Shown here: positions 5,596 through 21,206 of the stretch, piece by piece | Layout of the letters: each line of letters starts with the position of its first letter | How positions within the stretch are numbered: position 1 is the first letter of the stretch | Assembly: GCA_947165275.1 (NCBI GenBank) | Contig: CAMUZQ010000013.1 | Coordinates: 1 to 47,445 of the forward strand | Length of the DNA stretch: 47,445 nt | Direction of reading: 5' to 3' | Origin: an uncultured Lachnospiraceae bacterium | GTDB taxonomy: Bacteria > Bacillota > Clostridia > Lachnospirales > Lachnospiraceae | Program-made: the position numbers and the translations under genes | The notes under the pieces: generated by a model | What the model was told of the DNA's origin: nothing | Databases searched by the model: none | What the model saw: the letters and a program-made list of their open reading frames with translations, nothing else

Positions 5596-7374
5596 TTAAA
5601 GCTGTGATATTTTTTCTCCGCTTCTGGCGATACCGGTTATGTCCGGATCGGCTGTCATCGAATAGTTTGTATGATAGATAACATATCCCGGAACTGCCCT
5701 CGCAGGCTTTTTTACATTTTTTATAAGTGTGTAATCAATATCGACCTTACCCTGCTCCCGTCCTGTGCTGTAGTAGGCAGCCAGCCTGCCCGCCTCATTG
5801 AAGGAGGAATCCGGCACAGACATGGGATCCTCTCTTCCCACCACAAGCAGCACATGTGATCCCGGATAGGTCTTCGAATGAAACCACCAGTCATTTCCAT
5901 GTCCCATCCCGAAGGTCAGCTCATCATTCTGGATATTATTCTTACCCACATATACGTCATAGCCGTCCGAGGTGATATAATGCACAGGCTCGCTCTTTTT
6001 CGCCGCCTTGCGGTTCTTCGTATTCACGGGATTCTTTTTTATATACCCCGTTCTCTTTAATTCCTCCGAGATAAGGAGCAGATCCTCTTCAGACTCCGCT
6101 GTCTCAAAGGATGCCTCTATGCTCTTCAGATGGGCAAGCTGTATCCGGCTTTCCTCAGCCTGCTCCATGGCGGCCTTTCTCGTCCTTTTAAGCTTCTCGA
6201 ATCTTGAAAAGTATTTATTTGCATTTTCATGAACGGTAAGCATGGGATCGAGGGGAACCCTTATATCCTTTCCGTCATAAAAGTTCACTGTATCGAAATG
6301 ATCCGAGCCGTCCTTTACATCATACCCATAGGTATTTATCAGCTCCGCATATATCCTGTACCTGTCCATCTTATCGGTATCCTTTATCTGGCCCAGCTGG
6401 ATATCATATTTTTTTGCGGTACGCTCTATCGCATTTGATACGATCCTCCTCAGATCCGAGGATCTCTGCCTCAAATGGTTATATGCGCTTCTTTCAGAAT
6501 AAAAACGCTCTATTACCTCTGATACGGAATCATACCCCCTCCTTTCAAGGTCTGAATACATGGTAAGGGGTATAGGCGCGAATTCTCTGGGAGCACCGTT
6601 TTCATAGACTATCTCGGGAGCAAAACGGCCGTGTTTCATATCATCTGTAAGCCTGATGAAATTATCGTAAAGCTTTTTCAGATCGGACTCCGTGACTGAG
6701 GAGGCGCTGTCATTGCCGTCTATCCCGGATCTGAAGCAGAGCTCGGAGGCCGTTACCGGCGAAAAGCCTGTATATGTCCCGTACAGCGCCTTGATCACAT
6801 TCACGGGTCTTCCGAGGATGTGGTTCCTGAAAAAATCAAAATCCCTTTCGGTAAAAGGATCTGCCTTGTCCTGGGTTTCCGGGATGAAATACCTTTCTCC
6901 GGGAAGTACCGTCCTCACCGAGCTCATGGAGGGAGGCACACGCTTAATGGAATCAATGATCGTATCGTCCTCATTCGCAAATATGATATTACTGTATTTT
7001 CCCATGAGCTCGACGATAAGCTTTTTCCGGACAAGATCACCGAGCTCATTCCTGTGCTCAGCGTGGATTACGATGATACGCTCCAGTGACGGCTGCTCTA
7101 CAGAGAGGATCCTGCCTCCCTGCAGATGCTTTCGCAAAAGCATCGTAAAAGCAGGCGCCTGCACAGGCGCTGTAAGGCTTCTGTCCGTCAGGCAGATAAA
7201 GGGCATTGAAGCGCTTGCGGAAATAAGAAGGCGCTTCATCCCGTGCTCCCTTGTCTTTACGGTGACAAGAAGCTCCCCCTGCTCCGGCTCCGATATTTTA
7301 GATATATATCCTTCTGCAAGAAGCTGTCGCAGCTCACAGGCTGCGGCACATACAGTAACTCCGTCAAATGCCAT
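5596..7374 (-). CDS. rqcH: NFACT-family ribosome quality control factor RqcH (Rqc2 homologue)
   Basis: The 592-residue protein has the full NFACT layout. An N-terminal NFACT-N domain starts MAFDGVTVCAAACELRQLL and includes LIVELMGKYSNIIF near residue 125. A helix-hairpin-helix part (about 180-280) and a coiled coil (about 280-430) follow. The C-terminal NFACT-R domain carries GNDWWFHSKTYPGSHVLL (about residues 494-511). RqcH binds the 50S subunit with a stalled peptidyl-tRNA and recruits tRNA-Ala to add a C-terminal alanine tail for proteolysis. Older annotations call this family fibronectin-binding protein FbpA. The gene starts 11 bases after the ABC permease gene ends, so it may be cotranscribed with the importer. 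Confidence 0.93.
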   Translation of the reverse strand: MAFDGVTVCAAACELRQLLAEGYISKISEPEQGELLVTVKTREHGMKRLLISASASMPFICLTDRSLTAPVQAPAFTMLLRKHLQGGRILSVEQPSLERIIVIHAEHRNELGDLVRKKLIVELMGKYSNIIFANEDDTIIDSIKRVPPSMSSVRTVLPGERYFIPETQDKADPFTERDFDFFRNHILGRPVNVIKALYGTYTGFSPVTASELCFRSGIDGNDSASSVTESDLKKLYDNFIRLTDDMKHGRFAPEIVYENGAPREFAPIPLTMYSDLERRGYDSVSEVIERFYSERSAYNHLRQRSSDLRRIVSNAIERTAKKYDIQLGQIKDTDKMDRYRIYAELINTYGYDVKDGSDHFDTVNFYDGKDIRVPLDPMLTVHENANKYFSRFEKLKRTRKAAMEQAEESRIQLAHLKSIEASFETAESEEDLLLISEELKRTGYIKKNPVNTKNRKAAKKSEPVHYITSDGYDVYVGKNNIQNDELTFGMGHGNDWWFHSKTYPGSHVLLVVGREDPMSVPDSSFNEAGRLAAYYSTGREQGKVDIDYTLIKNVKKPARAVPGYVIYHTNYSMTADPDITGIARSGEKISQL

Positions 7375-14050: not shown

Positions 14051-15229
14051 TCAGGGATTCCTGTGGATCAGGCCCGTTTTATTCAGCGCGATACAGATGA
14101 GAATGGTCAGAGCCATATCCGGGAAAGTATTGCCCACCGGTATATCCACCCTCATCAAAAGCCTGTAAATGATAAAGCCCGCGAGCCATATGAGCATATT
14201 GGCGGGATCAAACTCCCTCTCCGTGCTGTCATGGCCGAGTATGAAATGATCAGCTGTCTGAATGGCTGCCATGGGCGCAAAAACGGATCCGATAAGATAA
14301 AGAAAATCTGTGATATCGTCCATAGGAAAAAAAACGGCGCACAGCGTGCCGATGACAGCGGTAAATGCCGCGACCCATTTCCCGCTGACAAGGCTCTGTA
14401 TCGTTTCGCTCGATATCCCTGCGGAGAAAGCATCCAGAAATGTAGTCGTCACCGTCGAGAGGATAATGATAAGAAGTCCGGCAGCTCCCAGCCCCGAACG
14501 CAAAATGATCTGAGCCAGATCACTCTCTCCTGCAAATAAAGCCGCCCCCATGCCGATGATGTACATCCAGCAGCTGACAAGCCCGTATACTGCCGAGCTT
14601 ACGGCTGTCGCAGCCACAGGCTTCTCTGCATTCCGGGTATAATCACTTATCAGCGGCAGCCATGAAAGCGGCATCGCTGCCGCCAGCTCCACTGCAGCCC
14701 CGAAGCTCATGCCCTCACCGGAAGCCTCAGCTCCGCTTCCTCCGAATATCACCGTACAGAGCATGACAGTGAGTCCGAAAAGCAGTATCATTGCCGCAGT
14801 ATTGAGCCTGCCCAGATTCTGTATGCCTATCAGTATCCATATGATTATGAGCACTCCCGTCACCAGGCACCATATCCACCTCCCCGCCGGAAGCACGCTC
14901 TCAGCGGACATGGAGCCGTCATAGATCATTATCGCTGTCCAGCCCACAAGCTGGAGCACATTGAGCAGAGCAAAAAAAACCGCTCCCCTTTTGCCGAAGC
15001 TTCCCTTCACAGTTTCCATAGCGCTCTTTTTTGTCCCGGCTCCTATAAGCCCTGAAGCAAAAAGGATCACGCAGCCTATAAGATGCCCGATGATGACGGC
15101 AGCTGTCCCCTTTGAAAGTCCAAGGGATGCAAAATAAGTTCCCGTCTGTATCTCAGCAAGAGAAACTCCCGCTCCAAACCATATAAGTGCATTTTCAAAT
15201 ACCGATGTTGTTTTGCCGTCCCTGTCCAT
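14051..15229 (-). CDS. cytX: Hydroxymethylpyrimidine transporter CytX (NCS1 family)
   Basis: The 392-residue protein has about 12 membrane segments and the NCS1 (nucleobase:cation symporter) pattern near the N-terminus (FGAGVSLAEIQTGTYFASLG). CytX members are typically found with thi genes under TPP riboswitches and import hydroxymethylpyrimidine (HMP) for thiamine synthesis. Here it directly follows thiD by one base, and ThiD phosphorylates HMP. That fits a salvage operon, because no thiC is in this window. The function is inferred from family and position. Confidence 0.9.
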   Translation of the reverse strand: MDRDGKTTSVFENALIWFGAGVSLAEIQTGTYFASLGLSKGTAAVIIGHLIGCVILFASGLIGAGTKKSAMETVKGSFGKRGAVFFALLNVLQLVGWTAIMIYDGSMSAESVLPAGRWIWCLVTGVLIIIWILIGIQNLGRLNTAAMILLFGLTVMLCTVIFGGSGAEASGEGMSFGAAVELAAAMPLSWLPLISDYTRNAEKPVAATAVSSAVYGLVSCWMYIIGMGAALFAGESDLAQIILRSGLGAAGLLIIILSTVTTTFLDAFSAGISSETIQSLVSGKWVAAFTAVIGTLCAVFFPMDDITDFLYLIGSVFAPMAAIQTADHFILGHDSTEREFDPANMLIWLAGFIIYRLLMRVDIPVGNTFPDMALTILICIALNKTGLIHRNP

Positions 15230-15230
15230 A

Positions 15231-16031
15231 TCATGCCTTCCCCGGATCTGTCCTCAGTGCAAAGCCGTGATCCATCGGACCGCTTCCCGCGCCAAGATCC
15301 AGCATTGCGGAAAGAGCTCCGGATATATATTCCTTGGCTCTGCTTACCGCCTCCTCCATCGGGCAGCCTTTTGCTATATTTGAAGCTATGGCTGAAGAAA
15401 GAGTGCAGCCTGTGCCGTGGGTATTGGGATTGTCAATACGCCTTCCCCTGAACCAGGTCAGCTTCCCTTCAGAATACAGAAGATCATTCGCATCATTAAC
15501 GAAATGCCCTCCCTTAAGGAGTACAGCTGCAGAATATCTCTCTCCTATCTCAGCCGCCGCTTTCTCCATCTCATCCTCATTACCTATATCCATGCCGCAC
15601 AGGACCTCTGCCTCCGGTATATTGGGAGTGAGCACCTTCGCGACAGGAAACAGATATTTTTTCAGCGCTGACACGGCGTCCTCCTTTATAAGCCTGGCTC
15701 CGCTTGTGGATACCATGACCGGATCCACCACTATATTCTCCGCCTTGTAAAAGCTCAGCCTTTCAGCGACAGTCTCCGCGATCTCCGCTGATGAGACCAT
15801 GCCGATCTTCACAGCATCGGGTCTCAGATCGGCAAAAATGCTGTCAAGCTGCAGCGCCACGAATTCCGGTGTGACCTCAAAGATCCCCTGAACCCCCAAT
15901 GTATTCTGGGCGGTAAGGGCCGTGATGACGCTCATGGCAAAAACCCCGTTCACAGTCATGGTCTTTATATCAGCCTGTATCCCTGCGCCTCCGCCGGAAT
16001 CACTGCCGGCGACAGTCAATACCTTTTTCAT
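15231..16031 (-). CDS. thiD: Hydroxymethylpyrimidine/phosphomethylpyrimidine kinase
   Basis: The 266-residue ribokinase-fold enzyme phosphorylates HMP to HMP-P and then to HMP-PP. It shows the N-terminal VLTVAGSDSGGGAGIQADIK and the anion-hole motif NTHGTGCTLSSAIASNIAKG (about residues 210-229). Length is normal. It is separated from the upstream HAD gene by mobile element B copy 1, whose terminal repeat supplies a TATAAT directly upstream of thiD; this could act as a promoter box, but no matching -35 was seen. A GGAGA site precedes the ATG. cytX follows after one base. Confidence 0.95.
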   Translation of the reverse strand: MKKVLTVAGSDSGGGAGIQADIKTMTVNGVFAMSVITALTAQNTLGVQGIFEVTPEFVALQLDSIFADLRPDAVKIGMVSSAEIAETVAERLSFYKAENIVVDPVMVSTSGARLIKEDAVSALKKYLFPVAKVLTPNIPEAEVLCGMDIGNEDEMEKAAAEIGERYSAAVLLKGGHFVNDANDLLYSEGKLTWFRGRRIDNPNTHGTGCTLSSAIASNIAKGCPMEEAVSRAKEYISGALSAMLDLGAGSGPMDHGFALRTDPGKA

Positions 16032-16061
16032 ATTCTCTCCTTATCTCACTCAAAATCGAAA

Positions 16062-16230
16062 TAATATTATAACGTTCGCAAAATAACTGGCCTAATGCGA
16101 CGAATGCTTGCCTGAGAGTGCGTGTCAAAAAACGTAGGCGTAGCGGGCTACGCCGAGGCTTTTTCGGCACGTGCTATCAGGTGAGCAGGCAAGCATTTGG
16201 TCCAGTTATTTAAGATACGTTATAATATTA
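16062..16230. mobile_element. MITE-like element B, copy 1 (169 bp)
   Basis: The ends are perfect 14-bp inverted repeats: TAATATTATAACGT (16062-16075) and its complement (16217-16230). The symmetry continues imperfectly inward through AATAACTGG and GCTTGCCTG blocks. The centre is a GC-rich hairpin (GGCGTAGCGGGCTACGCC, about 16137-16154). The internal sequence is almost identical to the reverse complement of 20991-21206. It lies between thiD and the HAD gene, and its outer TAA forms the HAD stop codon. No coding capacity. Confidence 0.8.
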
Positions 16231-16881
16231 TAGTACAGCCGTCAGCTGCGACAGATCCGTATAATCCGGAAGATACAATCCGGCGGTGTGTCTGAGCTCA
16301 TCCTGCACATCACGACTTGCTTCATCAAAAACTCCCACAGTGACAAATCCTGCATTCTTCGCCGTCCTCAGGGCATGCAGGGCATCCTCAAAGACCAGGG
16401 TCTCCTCCGGGCGGCTTCCTGTTTTTTCTGCTGCCATAAGGTATATAGCGGGCTCCTGCTTTCCTGCTCCCGCATCATCAGCCGTGACGATATCCTCAAA
16501 AAAATCAGCTATCCCGTGCCGGTCAAGAGCCTTCTCTGCAAGCTCCCGCTCCGTCACCGTGGCGATGGCCATGGCTATCCCCTTTCCCTTCAGCAGCTCC
16601 AGAATATCCGTGATGCCCGGCTTTAATCCCACCTCTTCAGCATAAAAACGCCCTGTGATCCTGCGCATCCCCTCCGAGAACTCCCCGGGAGTCAGCAAAA
16701 GAGAATACCTCTTTATCATATATTCCACAGCTTCAGGCACAGTCATGGAAAAAATGATACGCCCAAGCTCCGGCTCCGCCTCTATACCGAGGCTTTCAAG
16801 AAATACCACCGGCGCCCTGTCCCAGAAAGGATTTGAATCGGTTATGGTACCGTCCAGATCGAAGACCGCCCCCCTTATCAA
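16228..16881 (-). CDS. HAD-superfamily phosphatase in the thiamine operon (candidate TMP phosphatase)
   Basis: The 217-residue protein has the HAD signature AVFDLDGTITDSN (nucleophile and acid at Asp8 and Asp10), a cap of the beta-phosphoglucomutase type, the motif ATVTERELAEKALDRHGI (motif II Thr) and LVFEDALHALRTAKNAG with the acidic motif. It overlaps thiE by 4 bases. The operon has ThiE, which makes TMP, and a thiamine pyrophosphokinase, which needs free thiamine, but no ThiL in the window. A TMP phosphatase is therefore the missing step, and HAD enzymes are known to do this in plants and some bacteria. The specific substrate is inference. The stop codon lies inside the terminal repeat of element B, so the last residue or two may have been altered by insertion. 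Confidence 0.85.
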   Translation of the reverse strand: MIRGAVFDLDGTITDSNPFWDRAPVVFLESLGIEAEPELGRIIFSMTVPEAVEYMIKRYSLLLTPGEFSEGMRRITGRFYAEEVGLKPGITDILELLKGKGIAMAIATVTERELAEKALDRHGIADFFEDIVTADDAGAGKQEPAIYLMAAEKTGSRPEETLVFEDALHALRTAKNAGFVTVGVFDEASRDVQDELRHTAGLYLPDYTDLSQLTAVL

Positions 16882-17519
16882 GCCAGAAGCTCCCTTTTCA
16901 CAAGATCAAGCAGTCTCTCTGTCGCAGCCCTCGGATCCTTTGCTGCATAGATCGCGCTTACGACTGCCACTCCGTCTATTCCGGTGCCCTTAAGCTCCAT
17001 GATATTATCAGGGCCGATACCGCCTATGGCGACTACAGGTATGGATACAGCCTCACATATTGCCTTCAGCTCAGATATGCTGACATCATCTGCATCAGCC
17101 TTTGTCCCGGTTGAAAAGATCGATCCGACTCCCAGATAATCAGCGCCGTCTCTTTCAGCCCTGAGAGCCTGCTCTACAGTCTGCGCCGAAACGCCGAGTA
17201 TCATACCGGGATCTATAAGCTCTCTGACCTTTAAGGCCTCCATATCATGCTGTCCGACATGTACTCCGTCCGCAGAGCACCTTATCGCTGTATCCACATC
17301 ATCATTTACAATGAAAGGCACCTTATACCTCTCACATAAAGCCTTGAGCTCCTCTGCCTCCTTCAAAATGCTCTCCGCATCAAGCTCCTTTTCCCTCAGC
17401 TGTATGCAAGTGGCTCCTCCTGCAAGTGCTTCCTCTGTTACCTCATACAATGTCCTTCCGTCAAGCCATGTCCTGTCAGTCACGGCATATACCGGCATCA
17501 TTTTTTTATCGAATCTCAT
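16878..17519 (-). CDS. thiE: Thiamine-phosphate synthase
   Basis: ThiE couples HMP-PP with hydroxyethylthiazole phosphate to form thiamine monophosphate (TMP). The protein (about 213 residues) is a TIM barrel with MPVYAVTDR near the start, GATCIQLREKELD (the QLREK motif), VNDDVDTAIRCSADGVHVGQ (NDDxD and GVHVGQ) and the phosphate loop VVAIGGIGPDNI. The ATG at 17517-17519 (MRFDKKMMPVYAVTDR), with AAGG eight bases before it, is preferred to a TTG six codons further up. It overlaps the end of thiM by 14 bases. Confidence 0.95.
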   Translation of the reverse strand: MRFDKKMMPVYAVTDRTWLDGRTLYEVTEEALAGGATCIQLREKELDAESILKEAEELKALCERYKVPFIVNDDVDTAIRCSADGVHVGQHDMEALKVRELIDPGMILGVSAQTVEQALRAERDGADYLGVGSIFSTGTKADADDVSISELKAICEAVSIPVVAIGGIGPDNIMELKGTGIDGVAVVSAIYAAKDPRAATERLLDLVKRELLA

Positions 17520-18333
17520 ATCTTGCGCCTTTCTCAAGCTGATCTCCGCTCATGTTGCAGACAGCATCGATCAGATAATTCCGGTAAGTCGAATTCCCGT
17601 CCTGCTCTGACAGCCTGCTCCTTGCCACCTCGCCTGCAAGCCCCATGGCGATGGTCGCAGCGCATACCGATTCAAAGCATCTGTCCGGATCCGCCACAAC
17701 AAAAGCAGCAGTCATGGCAGACAGCATGCAGCCTGTTCCCGTCACCCTGCTCATCATGGGATCCCCGTTTTTTATACAGCAGACCTTCTCACCGTCCGTT
17801 ATTATGTCAGTTGCTCCGGTGATGGCCACCACAGCTCCTGTATCCTTTGAGAAGGCCGAGGCAAATGATATGACACTGTCGATATTTGAATCATTTACCT
17901 GATCTGCAGCATCGGCATCCACTCCTCTGGTGGTACTGCTTCCTCCGTATAATGCCTTTATCTCCGAGATATTTCCCCTGATAACCGCCAGCTTCAATTC
18001 CTTTATGAGAGCTGAGGCGGTTTCCGTTCGAAGCCGCGATGCGCCGGCTCCCACGGGATCAAGCAGTACGGGATGCCCCAGCTCATTGGATCTCCTGCCT
18101 GCAAGAAACATGGAGGGGATCGTGTTTTTATTAAGTGTCCCAATGTTGATATTCAACCCTCCGCAGATAGAGGTTATATCCTCCACGTCGCCCTCATCAT
18201 CCGACATTATGGGCGAAGCTCCGCAGGCCAGAAGTATGTTTGCGCAGTCATTGACCGTCACATAGTTTGTGATATTGTGGACAAGCGGCGCCCTGTCACG
18301 CACGTTATCCATGATCTCCTTAAGCTTTATCAT
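17506..18333 (-). CDS. thiM: Hydroxyethylthiazole kinase
   Basis: The 275-residue ribokinase-fold enzyme phosphorylates hydroxyethylthiazole, salvaging the thiazole half of thiamine. Motifs are PLVHNITNYVTVNDCANILLACGASPIM (residues 16-43), VLLDPVGAGASRLR and the anion-hole VTGTGCMLSAMTAAF. It has a strong GAGGAGAGAGAAT site before the ATG, overlaps thiE, and follows the pyrophosphokinase gene after a 116-base gap that holds a hairpin repeat. Presence of ThiM and CytX with no ThiC/ThiG in the window suggests salvage of both thiamine precursors. Confidence 0.96.
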   Translation of the reverse strand: MIKLKEIMDNVRDRAPLVHNITNYVTVNDCANILLACGASPIMSDDEGDVEDITSICGGLNINIGTLNKNTIPSMFLAGRRSNELGHPVLLDPVGAGASRLRTETASALIKELKLAVIRGNISEIKALYGGSSTTRGVDADAADQVNDSNIDSVISFASAFSKDTGAVVAITGATDIITDGEKVCCIKNGDPMMSRVTGTGCMLSAMTAAFVVADPDRCFESVCAATIAMGLAGEVARSRLSEQDGNSTYRNYLIDAVCNMSGDQLEKGARYEIR

Positions 18334-18449: not shown

Positions 18450-19076
18450 TCATGCTTTACATTCCCTTGACAACATTATCAAAAGCATCCCCTCCTTCAC
18501 AGAGATCCTTGCCTCCTTCCCGGCCCAGGTATTGCTCACACCGAGAGGATAGGTATCGGTCATTTCGATATCCTCACATTCATATTTTGTTCCCTTTATA
18601 GTGACCCCTCTGCTCCTGTCCGACAAAGAAAACACTGACAGGGACCAGCCAGCCTTTTCCGGTATCACCGTCTCCCCGCAGGTAAGAAACACTGCCCTCG
18701 AATCAGCTCCCGTAAGCATCGTCTCCACCCCTCCTGCTGTAAGAAATGCTCCCGTCTGTATATTTGCCAGTGTATGATCCAGCCTTCCTCCGAAGGCGCA
18801 GCAGATCACTGCTTTTCTGCAGCCCTCCTTTAAGACGGTCCTTGCAGCATGCATGGTATCCGTATCGTCCTTTTCCACCGGAAGGCGGCATACATTGTAC
18901 TGCTCCGGGGGTATTTCCGATGAATCAAAATCCCCCACTATAAGATCCGGAGTATAGCCCAGGGCTTTGGCATATTCCCATCCCCGGTCGCAGGCGATCA
19001 CATGATCAGGCCCGGGGATATCATCCGGAAGCTCACTGAATTCTCCTCCGGAGATGATAAGACACGTTTCATACAT
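18450..19076 (-). CDS. Thiamine pyrophosphokinase
   Basis: The enzyme, about 208 residues, transfers pyrophosphate from ATP to thiamine to make the cofactor TPP. It shows the family pattern CDRGWEYAKALGYTPDLIVGDFDS (about residues 29-52, with the DFDS motif), KDDTDTMHAA (the D-D-T-D motif) and GRLDHTLANI (GGRxDH). A GTG at 19091 overlaps the terminator, so the ATG at 19074-19076 (MYETCLIISGGEF), with GGGTGGA upstream, is chosen. It is the first gene after the TPP riboswitch and terminator. Family numbering varies (TPK, or ThiN in some Firmicutes), so no symbol is given. Confidence 0.92.
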   Translation of the reverse strand: MYETCLIISGGEFSELPDDIPGPDHVIACDRGWEYAKALGYTPDLIVGDFDSSEIPPEQYNVCRLPVEKDDTDTMHAARTVLKEGCRKAVICCAFGGRLDHTLANIQTGAFLTAGGVETMLTGADSRAVFLTCGETVIPEKAGWSLSVFSLSDRSRGVTIKGTKYECEDIEMTDTYPLGVSNTWAGKEARISVKEGMLLIMLSRECKA

Positions 19077-19091
19077 AATAAATCCACCCAC

Positions 19092-19118: not shown

Positions 19119-19139
19119 GAATAATATAAATAAATCCGT

Positions 19140-19232
19140 ATCCTCTCCCTACGACGGCATTATCCGTATCAGGTAAAGGGTCGAAGCTTACAGCTTCCTC
19201 TCAGCCTGTCCTACAAGCTCCCCTGTCAAATC
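19140..19232 (-). promoter_or_regulatory. TPP (THI-box) riboswitch
   Basis: On the minus strand the aptamer has the conserved pieces in order: CAGGGGAGC, then GGCTGAGAGG (CTGAGA at 19199-19204), GACCCTTTACCTGATACGG, then GGATAATGCCG and CGTAGGGAGAGG. These form P1, the pyrimidine-binding J3/2 (CUGAGA) and the pyrophosphate-binding arm (GGATAATGCC). It controls the downstream thiamine operon by the terminator at 19092-19118. A repeated ACGGATTT on both sides of the aptamer could help form the alternative structure. Confidence 0.95.
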
Positions 19233-19271
19233 CGTATTTCGTAGTACATCCTATCACATATCACCGGTCAT

Positions 19272-20966: not shown

Positions 20967-20990
20967 AACCTGTCACCTATTATAATAATA

Positions 20991-21206
20991 CTAGTATAAC
21001 GTATCTTAAATAACTGGACCAAATGCTTGCCTGCTCACCTGATAGCACGTGCCGAAAAAGCCTCGGCGGTCTCCGCTTCGCTACGGTCCGTGCTAAGCAA
21101 ACAGCCACTGGCTGTTTAGCACCCCGCTACGCCTACGTTTTTTGACACGCACTCTCAGGCAAGCATTCGTCGCATTAGGCCAGTTATTTTGCGAACGTAA
21201 TACTAG
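20991..21206. mobile_element. MITE-like element B, copy 2 (216 bp, longer centre)
   Basis: Read on the plus strand it is the reverse complement of copy 1, with almost no differences in both arms (TAACGTATCTTAAATAACTG on the left, GGCCAGTTATTTTGCGAACG on the right). The outer ends are CTAGTATAACGT and ACGTAATACTAG. In the centre the small hairpin of copy 1 is replaced by about 51 bases carrying another hairpin (GTGCTAA...TTTAGCAC around 21090-21121). The element fills the recN-nadK intergenic space. Confidence 0.8.

Follow-up and report, generated by a model that had tools for sequence, protein, structure and literature searches.

The HAD phosphatase gene that directly follows thiE in a riboswitch-headed thiamine operon of an uncultured Lachnospiraceae bacterium very probably encodes a dedicated thiamine monophosphate phosphatase (ThMPase) of HAD subfamily IA, a reading to which we assign a probability of nearly nine in ten. 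ThiE makes thiamine monophosphate (TMP), ThiL phosphorylates TMP, and thiamine pyrophosphokinase (TPK) uses free thiamine; with ThiE and TPK alone, the route to TPP has a gap that can be closed only by removing the phosphate from TMP. From the gene order, the catalytic residues, the lack of any thiL or thiC above cut-off in the assembly, and the recurrent linkage or fusion of homologous genes to thiamine genes, we infer that TMP is the likely substrate.

Operon layout and the HAD protein

The window, meaning the whole stretch of 47,445 nt that was analysed, is contig CAMUZQ010000013.1 (labelled C13 in the assembly) of GCA_947165275.1, an assembly of 2.88 Mb that is 96% complete. The operon runs on the minus strand in the order TPP riboswitch, TPK, thiM, thiE and HAD gene, followed after a 196-bp gap by thiD and cytX:

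19129..19234, minus strand: TPP riboswitch aptamer (RF00059; 68.2 bits, gathering score 54.3)
19118-19098: intrinsic-terminator-like hairpin just downstream of the TPP riboswitch
18450..19091, minus strand: thiamine pyrophosphokinase, TPK/thiN (TIGR01378, 132.9 bits, cut-off 76.4; Pfam TPK catalytic and B1-binding domains)
17506..18333, minus strand: thiM, hydroxyethylthiazole kinase (NF006830, 315.3 bits, cut-off 180)
16878..17537, minus strand: thiE, thiamine phosphate synthase (TIGR00693, 228.2 bits, cut-off 145.1)
16878..16881, minus strand: TTGA, four bases shared by the stop end of thiE and the start of the HAD gene, read from the sequence
16228..16881, minus strand: HAD-IA phosphatase, proposed ThMPase, 217 aa, TTG start (PF13419, TIGR01509)
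16061..16231, no strand assigned: palindromic, MITE-like repeat element (fold z -7.15; 35-nt inverted arms; further copies in the genome)
16137-16154, both strands: terminator-like hairpin within the repeat element, in the interval between the HAD gene and thiD
15231..16031, minus strand: thiD, HMP/HMP-P kinase (TIGR00097, 353.4 bits, cut-off 204.95)
14051..15229, minus strand: cytX, putative hydroxymethylpyrimidine transporter (TIGR02358, 376.2 bits, cut-off 309.85)

The RF00059 match and the family scores agree with a preliminary description of this DNA, which had proposed a riboswitch operon of TPK, thiM, thiE, an HAD gene, thiD and cytX, and the four-base overlap that it reported between thiE and the HAD gene is seen in the sequence. 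Each neighbour of the HAD gene in the operon scored above some curated NCBIfam cut-off, ThiM through NF006830, since it fell narrowly below TIGR00694 (249 vs a cut-off of 256.4). thiD is not tightly joined to the genes before it, as the gap (16032-16227) lies ahead of it. If counted from its first possible start, thiE shares 32 bases (17506-17537) with the end of thiM. The HAD gene starts at 16881, with AGGGAG just upstream, inside thiE, and its translation would be coupled with that of thiE.

The HAD ORF scored 87.4 bits against PF13419 (cut-off 23.8) and 59.9 bits against TIGR01509 (cut-off 29.4), and these scores, together with the catalytic motifs and a predicted helical cap, place it in the HAD superfamily, subfamily IA. 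The catalytic residues D8, D10, T108, K141, E165 and D166 are present and conserved. HAD catalysis proceeds via an aspartyl-phosphate intermediate; here D8 would serve as the nucleophile and D10 as the acid/base, with Mg held by D8, D10 and D166. An AlphaFold2 model (83 rows; pLDDT 93.6, pTM 0.87) has a Rossmann-like core, and its residues from about 17 to 83 form a helical cap, placed after motif I and before strand 103-108. The nearest solved structure in a fold search with this model was 3kbb (TM 0.84, query-normalised; 27% identity), and the MtlD phosphatase domain came next (7ocu; TM 0.79, also query-normalised). Both have the same fold as the window HAD but are named for other substrates, at 26-27% identity, and we know of no linkage of either to thi genes. 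Fold and PDB matches were mostly HADs of the sugar-phosphate type, and no match in the fold search named the substrate.

Solved relatives of this type, along with the abundance of HAD-IA paralogues in the sampled genomes, are what would be expected if the gene encoded a passer-by sugar phosphatase of subfamily IA that had entered the operon by chance. Such an accident is barely credible, as the linkage to thiamine genes is repeated over many genomes and is accompanied by fusions, both described below, and as the protein scored far under the equivalog cut-offs for bPGM and sugar phosphatases. Among the best 25 of 36 families, from which the equivalog scores were taken, the candidates rejected in this way were TIGR01990 (66.1 vs 189.4 bits), HxpB (74.0 vs 191) and MtlD (76.6 vs 800). 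The preliminary description had likewise judged a passer-by gene to be the poorer fit, and the recurrence of the linkage supports this.

The window HAD is of a subtype with DSN after motif I, as are 60 of the 120 nearest proteins listed. All linked relatives examined are of the DSM subtype, and the gene context of the DSN subtype is known from the window alone. Source names, carried by six of the 120 proteins listed, read only "HAD family phosphatase" or "HAD superfamily hydrolase (TIGR01509 family)", and a scan of viral contigs found no relative. Specificity residues were sought by comparing linked and unlinked HADs and set aside, as positions conserved in the former are mostly conserved in the latter too; Y27, Y59, A170 and T173 differ most between the groups, a weak signal, and the window HAD has F at position 27.

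thiL, thiC and the proposed route to TPP

The preliminary description had noted that the operon lacks thiL and had named a thiL gene elsewhere in the genome as a result that would tell against its proposal. A genome-wide search with TIGR01379 (cut-off 184.15) was likewise empty above cut-off in the 96%-complete assembly, giving only matches of 90.7 and 34.2 bits. The two sub-cut-off matches were rejected as HypE (395.2 bits against its own family, cut-off 251.6), to whose ORF the best score of 90.7 bits belongs, and PurM (421.6 bits, cut-off 236.35). The same search gave matches in 14/14 control genomes, above cut-off in nine of them. The assembly lacks about 4% of the genome, and a thiL gene could still lie there.

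No thiL above cut-off was found in any of 150 genomes of the family or 196 genomes sampled from the class, and its absence is therefore not evidence special to this operon. The idea that loss of thiL predicts a linked HAD was dropped, because no sampled genome had a thiL above cut-off for contrast and because 65 of the 91 family genomes with thiE have no linked HAD of this type. TPK was above cut-off in 138/150 family genomes and thiE in 91/150. If the thiL cut-off is sound, every thiE-bearing member of the lineage needs some TMP phosphatase. The top thiL score in the class sample, 143.9 bits at G328:C1:317625-318539, came from a match that is nearly full length and under cut-off; this genome is listed as 11% contaminated, and the match may be a true thiL.

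There was no match to thiC in the window's assembly, so HMP must be imported, a role that CytX fits. CytX and ThiD would salvage HMP, ThiM would salvage hydroxyethylthiazole, and ThiE would join the two salvaged moieties to form TMP. With no ThiL to phosphorylate it, TMP would instead lose its phosphate to the HAD enzyme, and TPK would pyrophosphorylate the resulting free thiamine to TPP, which would feed back on the riboswitch. The HAD enzyme would, in this scheme, be the main TMP-hydrolysing activity of the cell.

The assembly holds a second ThiE/TenI-like ORF, on contig C47 (L252 4504-5142), which scored 88.8 bits, below the cut-off of 145.1. It adjoins an ORF that we take to be histidyl-tRNA synthetase, and in the 12 kb around it none of the other thiamine genes of the operon has a match.

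Homologues linked or fused to thiamine genes, and published counterparts

In a single-sequence search of the 150 family genomes, the top match was the window HAD itself, and the next 21 matches, from 20 genomes, all adjoin thiE; below these, linked and unlinked HADs are mixed. An HAD of this type lies beside thiE in 26 of the 91 family genomes with thiE, and none lies within the flanks read in the other 65. Profile A1 derives from 24 linked HADs, and the score gap between linked and other HADs in the family is therefore partly due to construction; the single-sequence ranking and the class sample, in which the window's genome (G000) is the only training genome of the profile, are free of this bias. 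In the class sample, loci were read for the 20 best matches other than the window, for the 12 that followed (one genome's second hit being passed over) and for eight hand-picked matches of lower rank. Thiamine neighbours were found in 19 of the top 20, in one case ThiD only (L229), the exception being L223, which has none. Linkage fell with score, to 5/12 at about 229-254 bits and 3/8 at 188-201 bits.

A further set of named loci was found with the DSM motif and thus leaves out the DSN subtype: among the best 80 of at least 519 confirmed loci, 63 show a match to a thi gene or TPK in flanking sequence of at most 5 kb. The remaining 17 have neither such a match nor a TPP riboswitch at gathering score, and thiE is above cut-off in the genomes of nine of them. 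All these linkage counts are lower bounds, since flanks of unequal length were read (about 1.5 kb for L043-L072, about 3 kb for L073-L123) and contig ends cut some of the thiE loci short. On a tree of 154 HADs, 119 of them linked, the linkage label changes 19 times, compared with 31.8 times in shuffles (0/500 as low). Linked HADs are clustered on this tree, which is a quick one with 60 of its 148 inner branches drawn open, and do not form one clade; a single clean clade was rejected because at least six of the 19 changes are forced by starred branches.

One finding that counts against a ThMPase is that 65 of 91 family genomes with thiE have no linked HAD of this type. At these thiE loci, profile matches reached only 46.5 and 24.3 bits, and some neighbouring genes recur; an HAD of this type is not among them. 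Given that thiL is missing from these genomes too, the linked gene is not universally needed. thiC was not above cut-off in 15/26 HAD-linked genomes vs 18/65 unlinked ones (Fisher p 0.015). This is only a hint that linkage is commoner where thiC is lacking, since the genomes are related; the division into 26 and 65 genomes and the table of thiC matches were compiled by hand from genome lists, and the genomes with partial thiC matches (G090, linked; G134, unlinked) were counted as lacking it.

A contrasting case comes from G079, the only other sampled genome of the window's genus. One of its loci (L253 4892-6206) combines TPK with a TPP riboswitch and a transporter of the ThiT type (94.3 bits against PF09515, short of the NCBIfam cut-off for ThiT) and lacks the salvage genes; the genome has no thiE above cut-off, no thiC and no close HAD (best E 7.7e-10). 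The HAD gene is thus absent where thiamine seems to be imported ready-made, in a comparison of one genome pair.

The best clue to the substrate comes from fusions. Twelve of the 154 HADs share one stop-free frame with ThiE, ThiD or TPK. Frames joining ThiE and HAD occur at L010 and L099 (family genomes), L181 (Eisenbergiella tayi), L219 and L240, those joining HAD and ThiD at L162, L212, L213, L218 and L220, and ThiE, HAD and ThiD matches all fall within one stop-free frame at L231 (2-1759). The twelfth, at L194 (4995-6296), is an HAD-TPK fusion of 433 aa counted from ATG, the one case among the twelve in which the start codon was checked, with both domains confirmed by Pfam; ThiT follows at 6612-7331 (110.7 bits, cut-off 108.45). 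An HAD also adjoins TPK, with no thiE in the locus, at L153, L171 and L189, with a four-base overlap of TPK and HAD at L171. The assemblies of L194 and L171, in which HAD and TPK are joined, yielded no thiE match; both are metagenome assemblies of unstated completeness. As the HAD is joined both to the maker of TMP (ThiE) and to the user of free thiamine (TPK), conversion of TMP to thiamine would be the simplest function.

The HAD-ThiD frames could instead suggest that the enzyme serves as a valve for overflow or damage control by hydrolysing a precursor (HMP-P, HET-P or HMP-PP), with TMP left to general phosphatases. The many thiE genomes that have no linked HAD point the same way, in that some other TMP-hydrolysing activity probably exists there. 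This is improbable, since such a valve would set up a futile cycle with ThiM and ThiD of the same operon and would leave unexplained the HAD-TPK fusion and the linkage to TPK with no nearby thiE (L194, L171, L153 and L189). A highly improbable alternative is a phosphatase for salvage or house-cleaning that acts on thiamine phosphates in general, such as scavenged TMP or phosphorylated analogues, with no mainly biosynthetic role. Joining of HAD to TPK where thiE was not found, the adjoining ThiT at L194 and the commoner linkage in genomes lacking thiC are consistent with this proposal, but the assemblies concerned are the metagenomic ones just described, and the overlap with thiE and the absence of the HAD from the importer-bearing, thiE-less congener better fit a role in biosynthesis.

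A broader version of the ThMPase reading sees in the HAD a portable module for the step from TMP to thiamine, one that has become attached to ThiE, ThiD or TPK. In L194 at least, among the Clostridia assemblies, it would work outside biosynthesis: the HAD-TPK protein beside ThiT, where ThiE is lacking, would make TPP from scavenged or degraded thiamine phosphate. We consider this speculative and rather unlikely. The HAD-TPK fusion next to ThiT is a mild novelty, its assembly having yielded no thiE.

The concept of a TMP phosphatase is not new. A study by Hasnain et al. 2016 reportedly assayed enzymes from Anaerotruncus colihominis, Dorea longicatena and Syntrophomonas wolfei. HAD-IA hydrolases fused to thiamine genes, or in operons with them, have been credited with TMP dephosphorylation (Hasnain et al. 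2016, Biochem J 473:157, doi 10.1042/BJ20150805, as cited in PMC5627462, PMC4921024 and PMC4861732), and a table in PMC4921024 lists HAD-IB among the TMP-dephosphorylating hydrolases as well. The window HAD appears to be a further member of this published kind, sharing subfamily IA, a place in a thiamine operon (or fusion to thiD or thiE) and the proposed reaction. The host pattern for those enzymes, TPK with no ThiL, is found in the window's 96%-complete genome, and their clustering with thiamine genes is found in the overlap with thiE and in the linkage and fusions of homologues. The likeness is drawn from family and gene context, and the window HAD has DSN after motif I where the linked homologues seen here have DSM.

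A close parallel is described for Paenibacillus apiarius, whose thiamine operon holds an HAD-IA gene, with thiE and a putative TPK and no thiL; the authors infer a TMP phosphatase, as reported in PMC5627462. That bacterium has thiC and thiazole synthesis genes, whereas thiC was not found in the window's genome, so that here HMP would come from outside. In plants, TH2/PALE1 is described as a TMP phosphatase of TenA and HAD domains (PMC7868968), which resembles the proposed enzyme in being an HAD-domain phosphatase acting on TMP ahead of TPK and differs in being a TenA-HAD protein of the mitochondrion or cytosol. The preliminary description, in proposing that the HAD enzyme hydrolyses TMP in the stead of ThiL, was thus very probably right on function as well as right on the sequence, given the recurrent linkage or common frame with ThiE, ThiD or TPK, the lack of thiL above cut-off, the contrast with the congener and the same inference in print.

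The window's genome matches the "Ahz" pathway variant of a gut-vitamin reconstruction of 2,228 genomes, which Table 1 of PMC6593275 gives as ThiD, ThiE, ThiM and ThiL/ThiN and assigns to 452 of the 2,228. This source gives "ThiL/ThiN" as the last step of the thiamine route, and in its main text the strings "phosphatase", "ThMP", "dephosphorylat" and "monophosphate" do not occur and "TMP" occurs once. In the sampled lineage, annotation of the TMP phosphatase step could benefit from a profile (A1/A2) of thi-linked HADs.

A palindromic repeat between the HAD gene and thiD

The gap between the HAD gene and thiD consists mostly of the palindromic repeat with its terminator-like hairpin, and thiD-cytX may thus be partly uncoupled from the riboswitch operon. 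The end of the repeat enters the last four bases of the HAD ORF. Eleven other places in the genome match the repeat over about 160 bases or more, one of them a second copy in the window (20988-21205), and there are additional partial copies, several at contig ends. Judged from seven further loci and the second window copy, the ends of the repeat are mostly CTAGTATA and TATACTAG; the copy beside thiD has the end ATAATATTATAACG instead.
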